Assembly (NCBI GenBank): GCA_029212405.1
Contig: JARGNR010000031.1
Coordinates: forward strand, 1-64,000
DNA length: 64,000 nt
Direction of reading: 5' to 3'
Source: Saprospiraceae bacterium
GTDB lineage: Bacteria > Bacteroidota > Bacteroidia > Chitinophagales > Saprospiraceae
The translations under genes were made by a program, and so were the position numbers. Under the pieces are notes generated by a model. The model did not search any database. It had not been told where the DNA came from and saw nothing but the letters and a program-made list of their open reading frames with translations. Positions 8,067 through 11,130 of this stretch are shown one piece after another. The stretch's first letter is position 1, and each line of letters begins with the position of its first letter.

Positions 8067-9113
8067 TCAGCATACTTTGAGGTATCTTTTTTGAGACCCT
8101 TTTTGTATGGTGTCAAAAATAATCTTACTTACCTTTTGACTCTCAGTAAGAAATCCGTCATGTCCCAAGTCAGAAGATATTTCATAGTATTTCGAGTTGG
8201 GAATATGCAAGGCAATGTCTTTTTGTTCCTGTACTGGGAATAAAACATCAGAATCTATTCCTATAACTGTTGTATTGGATGTTATTGAGGAAAGCGCTTC
8301 TTGAATTCCACCTCTATTCCTGCCAATATTATGACTGTCCATGGCCTTAGTTAAAACCCAATAAGAAAATGCATTAAATCTATTCACTAATTTATCTCCT
8401 TGATATCTTTGGTAAGATGAAACTCTATAGTGATCCAATTTCTCTTCATTGTCCGACTGTGTCCGATTGTACCCTTTACTAGTTCGATAGCTCAGTAAAG
8501 CTATCGATCTTGCAGCTTTCAATCCTTTTAGTCCTGCTTCGTCTTTTCTTTCAATCCAAGTTTGATCTGCTTCAATAGCCAGTCGTTGACTTTCGTTGAA
8601 TGCTATACCGTAAGCAGAATGTTTTGAGTTTGTTGCGATCAATACCAAATTCACAATAGAATCAGATTCTGAATATGCCCATTCCATCGCTTGTTGTCCA
8701 CCCAAGCTTGCTCCAATTAGCGTATGGATGGATTCAAGTCCCAGATACTCTTTTAATGCTATAAATGTGTTTACGATATCCCTATTTGTAAGTTGAGGAA
8801 AATCATGGTAGTATTTTGTACCATTTTCTGGATTGATCGATAGTGGATTAGTACTACCATAATGGGAGCCTAATGCATTGGCACAAACTATAAAATGTTC
8901 TTCAGGATTGATCACCTTATCTTTACCCACAACGTCTGACCACCAATCTGTAGGGTCAGAGTTAGCCGTTAAAGCATGAATGACCCAAACCACATTAGAT
9001 TTATCTGCGTTGAGAGATCCAAAAGTTTGGTAGGCCAACTTGAATCCGGAGAGAGATTCTCCAGATTCAAGAGGAAATTGTCTATCAAAATTAAATTCTT
9101 TATAATTCGGCAT
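8067..9113 (-). CDS. metX: Homoserine O-acetyltransferase
   Basis: Acetylates homoserine with acetyl-CoA to give O-acetylhomoserine, the committed step of methionine synthesis. The 348-residue cytoplasmic alpha/beta-hydrolase has the nucleophile elbow GASLGGQQAMEWA (S136), the acid D289 (SDVLFP) and H318 (LGHDGFL), plus the family block VWVIHALTANSDP near the N terminus. Some family members use succinyl-CoA, which sequence inspection alone cannot rule out. It lies 11 bases downstream of metY, whose product consumes its product, so the two form an operon controlled from the leader at 10487-10884. Length is normal for the family. Confidence 0.95.
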   Translation of the reverse strand: MPNYKEFNFDRQFPLESGESLSGFKLAYQTFGSLNADKSNVVWVIHALTANSDPTDWWSDVVGKDKVINPEEHFIVCANALGSHYGSTNPLSINPENGTKYYHDFPQLTNRDIVNTFIALKEYLGLESIHTLIGASLGGQQAMEWAYSESDSIVNLVLIATNSKHSAYGIAFNESQRLAIEADQTWIERKDEAGLKGLKAARSIALLSYRTSKGYNRTQSDNEEKLDHYRVSSYQRYQGDKLVNRFNAFSYWVLTKAMDSHNIGRNRGGIQEALSSITSNTTVIGIDSDVLFPVQEQKDIALHIPNSKYYEISSDLGHDGFLTESQKVSKIIFDTIQKGSQKRYLKVC

Positions 9114-9124
9114 GCCTTTGTGAT

Positions 9125-10588
<1,464 letters not shown>

Positions 10589-10638
10589 TTACGATTCTCC
10601 GACTTATTGAAATGGTAAAATATAGAATGAAGTGTCGA

Positions 10639-10764
10639 TTAGTTGCAACAACAGCAACAACAACACATCATAGATTGCATAAGAAATACTTGAGAAATTG
10701 AGCCCTCCTGAGGCCTGTTTTTTGTTCCGATGTTTGAAGAATTGTTAAACATTTTTTTATTCAT
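10639..10764 (-). CDS. Polycysteine leader peptide upstream of metY
   Basis: A 41-codon open frame starts at ATG 10764, just beyond the SAM aptamer, and ends MQSMMCCCCCCCN-stop: seven consecutive Cys codons (TGT TGT TGT TGC TGT TGT TGC), then AAC and TAA. The first part reads MNKKMFNNSSNIGTKN. Further in-frame ATGs at 10752, 10680, 10671 and 10668 could serve as starts, giving 37, 13, 10 or 9 residues. The A-rich context at 10764 (ATTAATGAATAAAAAA) suits Bacteroidota initiation. A run of Cys codons is what a cysteine-sensing translational leader needs: ribosomes stall there when charged tRNA-Cys is scarce. The frame sits 152 bases before metY. The ORF is directly visible; its regulatory role is inferred by analogy with amino-acid attenuators and actinobacterial polycysteine leaders. 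Confidence 0.8.
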   Translation of the reverse strand: MNKKMFNNSSNIGTKNRPQEGSISQVFLMQSMMCCCCCCCN

Positions 10765-10776
10765 TAATATTTATAG

Positions 10777-10860
10777 TTCCCAAAATTGGGTAGGAATTGG
10801 CACCTTGCTTTTAGCAGGTTGCCTGAGGGTCTTCGAGCCTAATCTCTCGCCTCATCAGTA
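10777..10860 (-). promoter_or_regulatory. SAM-I-type riboswitch (S-box) upstream of metY-metX
   Basis: Read on the minus strand, the segment contains the S-box landmarks: TGATGAGGCGAGAGA at the 5' side, GACCCTCAGGCAACC, then a short stem TGCTAAAAGCA and the diagnostic AGGTGCCAATTCC. These are the conserved GGCAACC and GGTGC(C/T)AATTCC blocks of the SAM-I aptamer, which binds S-adenosylmethionine. The 5' half is more compact than the textbook form. A -7 box lies just upstream (10877-10884) and the methionine genes downstream, so the position is exactly right. I do not see a convincing terminator right after the aptamer, so it may act through the leader frame that starts 13 bases later. Confidence 0.87.
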
Positions 10861-10876
10861 TAAAGTATTACGAATC

Positions 10877-10884: not shown

Positions 10885-11130
10885 TTTTTTCGGATAGTGT
10901 CGTATACTTTCGACGATGTAAATGTATGGTATAATTTTTCAATTTTCCAAACTTCAATATTGATCTTAACAGTATTTAACATTGCGTATTGGGAAGGGGA
11001 TTTTCAATAAATTGATTTAATTAGTAGAAAATCAATGGGTTAGGTATCTGGAAATAGTTTATAATAATTTTTGAAAAAAAATGAAAGAAAACTTTGTCGG
11101 ACAGATATTGAATGAATATTTGAATAGATC
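10885..11130. other. Intergenic region upstream of the met leader
   Basis: AT-rich stretch between the met operon promoter and the end of the secreted hydrolase gene. It presumably contains the -33 region of the met promoter. I see no gene, RNA or clear terminator in it. Confidence 0.4.

Follow-up and report, generated by a model that had tools for sequence, protein, structure and literature searches.

A conserved SAM-I aptamer and cysteine-codon leader frame ahead of metY in Bacteroidota, with a possible serial arrangement of the two sensors

The window analysed here is a stretch of 64,000 nucleotides from a Saprospiraceae bacterium (assembly GCA_029212405.1, contig JARGNR010000031.1, positions 1 to 64,000). 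On its minus strand metY and metX are preceded by a leader with the following features:

10919–10951, minus strand: candidate Bacteroidota sigma-A promoter, TTTG at 10948–10951 and TACATTTA at 10919–10926
10768–10866, minus strand: SAM-I aptamer (cmscan, RF00162), P1 5′ strand at about 10859–10866 and P1 3′ strand at about 10768–10775
10639–10764, minus strand: leader frame (uORF) of 41 codons, ATG start, TAA stop, ending in seven Cys codons, Asn and stop
10645–10665, minus strand: run of seven Cys codons, TGT TGT TGT TGC TGT TGT TGC, with two Met codons before it
9125–10486, minus strand: metY, O-acetylhomoserine sulfhydrylase (TIGR01326, 656 bits, cut-off 495)
8067–9113, minus strand: metX, homoserine O-acetyltransferase-like (TIGR01392, 335 bits, cut-off 500; NF001209, 313 bits, cut-off 331)

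The aptamer matches the SAM-I (S box) model RF00162 with 67.3 bits (E = 1.6e-13), above the gathering score of 44.4 bits, and the alignment covers positions 1–108 of the 108 in the model. The element is complete and qualifies as a family member by sequence and structure. A preliminary description of this DNA had placed a SAM-I-type aptamer at 10777–10860, which proves to be the core of this match, and had read the 41-codon frame at 10639–10764 with its seven Cys codons, Asn and stop correctly. The 13-base gap it gave between the two holds if measured from the core, but by the Rfam 3′ end of the aptamer the ATG follows after only 3 bases. The uORF reads MNKKMFNNSSNIGTKNRPQEGSISQVFLMQSMMCCCCCCCN, and 152 nt separate its stop from metY. 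For metX the two best models both describe MetX, yet each scores below its cut-off. The TTTG of the candidate promoter is what we take to be its −33 element, and the TACATTTA/TACATTTG element is retained across the alignment of the genus. The TAnnTTTG promoter consensus is that given in the accessible part of PMC9723704.

Within the 6.8 Mb genome the aptamer of the window is the only RF00162 match found. Runs of at least five consecutive TGY codons occur at four spots on the two strands of the whole genome, one of which is the uORF of the window, directly after this aptamer. Two others (G000:C143:32425-32520) lie opposite a poly-Gln coding stretch, in a protein that looks TPR-like by eye; the identity of the fourth, on contig C201, was not part of the comparison.

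We also searched the genome for the enzymes around this pathway. No protein reached the cut-off of the CysK/CysKM models, and the best match in that search was a cystathionine beta-synthase-like protein with 488 bits, just below the cut-off of 510. Judged from these profile scores, MetX and MetY may stand upstream of both methionine and cysteine, and if so, control by both end products is to be expected. The preliminary description had considered joint control by SAM and cysteine sensible on the ground that MetY consumes sulfide that would otherwise make cysteine. Its expectation of joint control survives if the pair feeds both pathways, but the sulfide-diversion rationale may be wrong here since no CysK/CysKM model reaches its cut-off. 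The same genome contains a rho gene above the model cut-off.

SAM aptamers are present in 53 of 100 genomes from the family of the window. At 24 of the 59 family aptamer sites examined, an ATG frame with a terminal Cys run comes next; at the other 35 it does not. To scan more widely, we used a pattern that specified a portion of the aptamer plus four TGY codons and left the frame free. This frame-blind scan returned at least 120 stretches, to which we applied an aptamer model (R1) built in this analysis. Among the 120 matches listed, 75 contain the R1 aptamer (all E ≤ 3.3e-12), and in the remaining 45 no R1 aptamer was found at E 0.01. In 74 of these 75 listed loci, a start codon (ATG in 62, GTG in 12) at an offset of −1 to +18 nt past the aptamer shares its frame with the longest TGY run. 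The sole exception among them is L065, where a GTG at +9 likewise opens a frame that terminates in CCCC. Names were available for 80 of the 120 matches listed, of which 49 are aptamer-bearing; 48 of these come from Bacteroidota and one is named only "bacterium". Carriers among the matches listed include Mucilaginibacter, Hymenobacter, Pontibacter, Fulvivirga, Nafulsella, Cesiribacter, Marivirga, Haliscomenobacter, Crocinitomicaceae and Flavobacteriales.

In the class Bacteroidia, 7 of the best 110 aptamer matches from 197 genomes pass the strict tandem test (G028 and G080 were omitted because they already belong to the family set). The genes behind these best 110 aptamers are metH-like (67), CGS-like (14), metY (9) or other (20), as labelled with motifs that we take to be characteristic of these genes. 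The tandem is not general among the SAM aptamers of the class. It is nevertheless confirmed as real and conserved, and it is the conservation that settles this point. Loss of the short frame or of its Cys codons in related leaders was one of the outcomes that, according to the preliminary description, would have refuted the idea; with 24 of 59 family aptamers carrying the tandem, 74 of the 75 listed loci in frame and mostly silent changes at Cys codons in close pairs, the idea passes this test.

The codon-level comparison was made on 98 non-redundant leaders, which remained after removal of 13 near-duplicates from 111 records selected for CC within the last 15 residues. These last 15 residues consist of 40% Cys and 9% Met, compared with 0.6% Cys and 0.5% Met in the body of the peptide, and the Cys codons divide into 383 TGT and 224 TGC. 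In the 21 closest relative pairs, synonymous and nonsynonymous changes number 21:9 at Cys codons versus 69:210 in the body (odds ratio 7.1, p = 1.2e-6); over all 41 relative pairs the counts are 68:60 versus 128:565. The Cys run is conserved at the level of codons, which is what the preliminary description had proposed to check. Selecting the records for Cys builds in some of this constraint, but does not explain the silent alternation of TGT and TGC or the in-frame placement. With the same proviso about Cys-selected records, the uORF has the property expected of a leader peptide, that is, a short frame with a codon-conserved run for the amino acid to be sensed. A functional peptide can be rejected because the uORF body is without amino acid constraint in close pairs. 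Judged by its codons, then, the uORF is a codon counter and not a peptide gene.

The leaders also stand ahead of genes of the cognate pathway, by motif metY in 54 of the 98 and metX in 9, although one of the nine (L140) was scanned as RimK-like. The distance from uORF stop to downstream gene has a median of 130 nt (85 leaders). Profile scans of ten downstream genes gave phosphoadenylyl-sulfate reductase (two) and a YfhL-type ferredoxin above cut-off, and, below cut-off, nitrite/sulfite reductase-like, peroxiredoxin, thioredoxin reductase-like and OsmC-like proteins, RimK-type ligase (two) and an amino-acid permease. At one locus (L052) a tandem with nine terminal Cys codons precedes a peroxiredoxin-like gene. 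GTG-started Cys-rich uORFs, several of them from Hymenobacter, begin at +9 or +10 past the aptamer (L064, L093, L096, L101, L105, L119, L130, L137, L147, L158, L160, L162, L282, L284, L295). The N-termini of the genes behind such GTG-started frames resemble amino-acid permease, RimK-type ligase or cysH (only L065 and L130 were profile-scanned), and one genome with a GTG-started Cys uORF, G267, holds five SAM aptamers.

The position of the uORF start suggests how the two elements may be connected. Measured from the aptamer end, the start codon lies at a median of 9 nt (98 leaders), which is within the reach of a riboswitch platform. Upstream of 82 ATG-started uORFs, A is found at −12 in 74%, at −13 in 62%, at −6 in 61% and at −3 in 56% of cases; for 85 downstream genes the corresponding values are 66%, 65%, 52% and 64%, while 258 other ATGs show A in only 29% at −6 and 22% at −3. 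These are positions that the accessible part of PMC6847099 names for Flavobacterium johnsoniae, whose phylum it describes as lacking Shine–Dalgarno sequences. At the median offset of 9 nt, positions −12 and −13 fall within the 3′ strand of P1, and −3 and −6 fall outside it. The A's at −12 and −13 are weak evidence when taken alone, because they come with the conserved P1. On this start-site signature, the uORF looks translated.

A second observation concerns the composition of P1. Behind aptamers with a P1 of A and U only, a start codon follows within 20 nt in 39 of 50 cases (35 Cys uORFs and 4 genes), compared with 6 of the 119 others (p = 5.6e-22). P1 types were assigned by pattern, and the statistic ignores common descent. 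The four genes are ordinary ones that start at +9 to +13 past the A/U-only aptamer (L018, L026, L027, L049). Since a gene can occupy the place of the uORF when the uORF is absent, the switch would act on initiation at this place. By motif, the genes of L018, L027 and L049 are metX and that of L026 is another gene, all in the usual place of the uORF. The accessible portion of PMC2258182 reports that in SAM-I riboswitches the 3′ side of P1 serves as the ribosome site. Without data on SAM binding, translation or expression, we can say that the start of the uORF looks gated by the P1 of the aptamer. The preliminary description had seen two sensors side by side in one leader. Both are present; the uORF starts where P1 can block it, and the sensors, to judge from their placement, are probably wired in series and not merely adjacent.

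The RNA between the uORF and metY was folded with a ribosome at different positions, and three predicted elements matter here:

10640–10646, minus strand: GCAACUA, running from the close of the final Cys codon through Asn into the stop, and predicted to pair with 10559–10565 as the 5′ arm of an antiterminator-like helix
10576–10632, minus strand: hairpin A of the minimum free energy (MFE) fold, 5′ arm CUUCAU-UCUAU at 10622–10632 and 3′ arm AUAGAUGAAG at 10576–10585
10556–10572, minus strand: hairpin B, candidate attenuator, AUAGCG-CUAGU-UGCUAU followed by UUAUUUG (weak U-tract), containing UAGUUGC at 10559–10565

The MFE fold of 10540–10641 has a z of −2.28. In the model the ribosome was assumed to cover 14 nt past the start of the first Cys codon or 11 nt past the stop. 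With the ribosome at the first Cys codon, the GCAACUA/UAGUUGC helix has a probability of 0.93, as against 0.00 with the ribosome at the stop and 0.00 in untranslated RNA. Hairpin B behaves in the opposite way (0.05 at the first Cys codon, 0.78 at the stop, 0.85 untranslated), and hairpin A has a probability of 0.91 with the ribosome at the first Cys codon. The average of the inner and outer stem in the window is 0.49 untranslated, 0.02 stalled and 0.48 at the stop. These predicted folds match the classical logic of attenuation, with the stalled state as ON and the completed or untranslated states as OFF. In our scoring for U-tract terminators hairpin B was not terminator-like. Hairpins at the place of hairpin A also occur in L056 and L152, and a joint RNAalifold alignment of five relatives including the window did not recover hairpin A.

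Across relatives the pattern is retained only in part. The last hairpin of L056, from the same genus, rises from 0.02 stalled to 0.80 at the stop, but is also at 0.02 when untranslated, and in L152, again from this genus, the hairpin is kept in both the stalled and the stop states. Of 72 leaders, 15 show a last hairpin whose probability is more than 0.3 higher with the ribosome at the stop than at the first Cys codon, where draws from single shuffles give 4.7, and a strong effect of ribosome position is absent in the other 57. Averaged over the leaders, the hairpin probability is 0.58 without translation, 0.57 in the stalled state and 0.68 at the stop, which means that "untranslated = OFF" is not general, and a paired test of the position effect against shuffle means was not significant (Wilcoxon p = 0.23). 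The RNA from stop to gene is more folded than its shuffles, with a mean z of −1.58 in 83 leaders and values under −1.5 in 38 of these, while the uORF body is not (0.04). Pairing of the Cys run with the downstream 70 nt was hardly above shuffles (mean z −0.30), and at this near-chance value the Cys run can be discarded as a general RNA pairing arm. A single universal attenuator fold can be discarded as well, since no structure common to seven clade sets emerged from RNAalifold, which for the Saprospiraceae set returned no pairs at all. By these predictions the leader folds are clade-specific. In Mucilaginibacter, a hairpin ACACGT...ACGTGT starts about 5–9 bases past the uORF stop. Terminators with a U-tract lie behind the stop in 18 of 85 leaders (7.8 expected), the window not being among them; an intrinsic terminator behind every uORF was not seen.

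Taken together, we somewhat favour a two-input leader in which a SAM aptamer gates a Cys-codon attenuator, most likely by transcription attenuation. The architecture, the conservation, the codon constraint, the start-site signature, the folded region after the stop and the predicted alternative folds of the window are the observed or computed basis of this reading, while SAM binding, blocking by P1, ribosome stalling and the direction and kind of output are inferred. According to this model, bound SAM would stabilise the A/U-only P1, which ends right before the start codon of the uORF. Because the 3′ strand of P1, UAUAAAU, also provides the A's at −12 and −13, translation of the uORF would then be shut. 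At low SAM the uORF would be translated, and the terminal Cys codons, with an occasional Met codon, would gauge charged tRNA-Cys. A ribosome paused on the Cys run would leave GCAACUA free to pair with UAGUUGC, destroying hairpin B; a ribosome at the stop would hide GCAACUA and let hairpin B form; and without translation the Cys run would pair elsewhere, so that hairpin B would form again. The sulfur genes would be ON only if SAM and cysteine are both low. The folding expected of a serial gate holds only in part across relatives, and the read-out may be intrinsic or depend on Rho.

A less likely but serious alternative is that Rho itself provides the read-out. On this account the C-rich, G-poor body of the uORF is a Rho loading region without an intrinsic terminator; SAM-bound P1 would halt translation, Rho would terminate on the bare RNA, and translation or pausing at Cys codons would shield it. 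In 96 of 98 leaders C outnumbers G in the body of the uORF, with C/(C + G) at 0.675 as against 0.512 over the opening 300 nt of the genes downstream. U-tract terminators occur in few of the leaders, and the genome of the window contains rho. The accessible part of PMC12810186 also offers a precedent in the Mbox of M. tuberculosis, where a riboswitch, uORF translation and Rho termination are combined. However, a low G content could merely keep the initiation region unstructured, and neither the folded region after the stop nor the response of the window to ribosome position would be needed for such a mechanism.

We consider it improbable that the aptamer works as an ordinary transcriptional SAM-I platform, controlling its own terminator and leaving the uORF ungated, with the Cys leader as a separate device. 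Terminator-like hairpins between aptamer and Cys run were found in 13 of 98 leaders where 3.9 are expected (the scanned stretch includes the last 12 nt of the aptamer), and a minority of leaders may use an ordinary terminator platform. The other 85 of 98 have no such hairpin, and the tight spacing of the starts, together with the four genes at an equal distance, argues for control of initiation. An equally low probability is assigned to translational attenuation in the mycobacterial style, in which the paused ribosome opens the initiation region of the downstream gene. Cysteine genes of M. smegmatis are regulated in this way according to the available text of PMC13236596 (citing Canestrari 2020). 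The predicted folds of our leaders leave the final 40 nt ahead of the downstream gene mostly unpaired (0.15 to 0.34 in four bins), and the median of 130 nt between stop and gene also speaks against it. Hiding of the downstream ribosome site is not supported by these folds, which are predictions only.

Copper-responsive Cys-rich uORF peptides exist in other bacteria, and this leaves some room for a peptide that is itself the sensor or effector, by binding metal or copper or by redox chemistry. We regard this as very improbable, because the body drifts (nonsynonymous to synonymous 210:69 in close pairs), the number and spacing of Cys residues vary, Met is enriched next to Cys (9.0% of the tail versus 0.5% of the body) and the downstream genes are mainly metY or metX by motif. 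Chance, or a TGY trinucleotide repeat beside a riboswitch, has in its favour only that TGY runs occur elsewhere in the genome, for example opposite a poly-Gln stretch, and is ruled out by the in-frame placement at 74 of 75 frame-blind loci among the matches listed and by the codon constraint, with the spread of the tandem across many genera counting against it as well.

Returning to the two-input leader, we compared metY leaders with and without an aptamer. From 91 loci of the family and class searches 90 leaders were used (L387 was excluded because it has no anchor). A Cys cluster is present in 46 of 56 leaders with an aptamer and in 21 of 34 without; ten of the 56 aptamer-bearing leaders lack it. 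The cluster holds a median of one Met with an aptamer versus four without (p = 0.0008), and in the aptamer-less leaders the frame runs on for a median of 8 residues past the cluster versus 0 with an aptamer. At least five Cys or Met within 12 residues occur in 16 of the 34 aptamer-less leaders, where 0.25 are expected from mononucleotide shuffles. Mixed Met/Cys uORFs without a SAM aptamer were seen at L310, L314, L317, L325, L330, L342, L353, L356, L364, L374, L376, L377 and L393, with runs such as MMMCMCCMMMC (L310) and CCCMCCCMEM (L314); L310 was counted as aptamer-less despite a weak score with the aptamer model (15.6 bits, E 0.54). There are also uORFs without a Cys run ahead of metY, as at L231, L254 and L208. 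At L231 and L254 the uORF starts at +9 past a SAM aptamer and has no Cys codon at all; it may be a frame that has outlived its Cys sensor or is used differently.

Judged from this comparison of leader sequences, Met codons and the SAM aptamer may be two alternative ways of sensing methionine, but the link is not proven. A MetY tree of 59 loci has at least 7 changes of the aptamer but only 2 to 4 independent contrasts. With so few a sign test cannot reach 0.05, and the association may reflect a small number of clades. As a tentative proposal, to which we give a little less than even chances, the leaders could form a phylum-wide family of Met/Cys attenuators with an exchangeable methionine arm, either Met codons or a SAM-I aptamer gating an almost purely Cys-reading peptide. 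The aptamer version would be the serial gate, ON without SAM and without cysteine. That lineages may switch between riboswitch and leader peptide is a general idea found in the accessible part of PMC2965389.

If these inferences are correct, many genera of one phylum carry a naturally occurring RNA gate with two inputs, in which a sensor that counts codons is under the control of a riboswitch. The small frame ahead of metY and other sulfur genes would have a likely function, and the A's within the P1 stem would give riboswitches a route to act on ribosomes that do not use Shine–Dalgarno sequences. It would also be a case of a metabolite aptamer and amino acid codons apparently replacing each other.

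The individual modules of this leader are known, and the combination was not found described in the literature searched. The preliminary description knew of no such tandem in Bacteroidota, and we also found no paper that joins a SAM riboswitch to a cysteine leader (subscription papers and preprints were outside the scope of this search). The sources used for the following comparison were available only in part. From the phylum itself, leader-peptide attenuation has been suspected in Flavobacterium psychrophilum (PMC9723704), and short frames are reported in long 5′ UTRs of Bacteroides thetaiotaomicron (PMC7366714). The polycysteine leaders of Actinobacteria resemble ours in being short frames with a C-terminal Cys run before sulfur genes (PMC1262725, PMC4633059). 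They differ in that they are leaderless or, in the text available, are described without mention of a riboswitch, whereas the Bacteroidota leaders begin with a SAM aptamer and often contain Met codons. Two features of the mycobacterial polycysteine attenuator are not met here, as a 99-nt aptamer precedes the uORF, which excludes a leaderless start, and pairing over the downstream ribosome site is not predicted, the last 40 nt being mostly unpaired. The uORFC-8-2 before cysS of Rhodobacterales shares tandem Cys codons and a proposed ribosome-mediated attenuation, but has two Cys codons and a U-tract terminator of its own, and the accessible part of the source mentions no riboswitch (PMC8632094). 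In the Mbox–uORF and B12 riboswitch–uORF leaders of M. tuberculosis translation of the uORF matters as well (PMC12810186, PMC11260477), and in the Mbox leader the switch directly controls the uORF (PMC12810186); there the ligands are Mg2+ and B12, and the uORFs are not described as amino acid sensors in the portions available. The closest likeness for the aptamer is the SAM-I/S-box family (RF00162), of which the window holds a complete member above the gathering score, and the 3′ side of P1 as ribosome site is a known translational platform for SAM-I (PMC2258182). The difference is that, in the window, the first start codon past the aptamer belongs to a leader peptide and not to the regulated gene.
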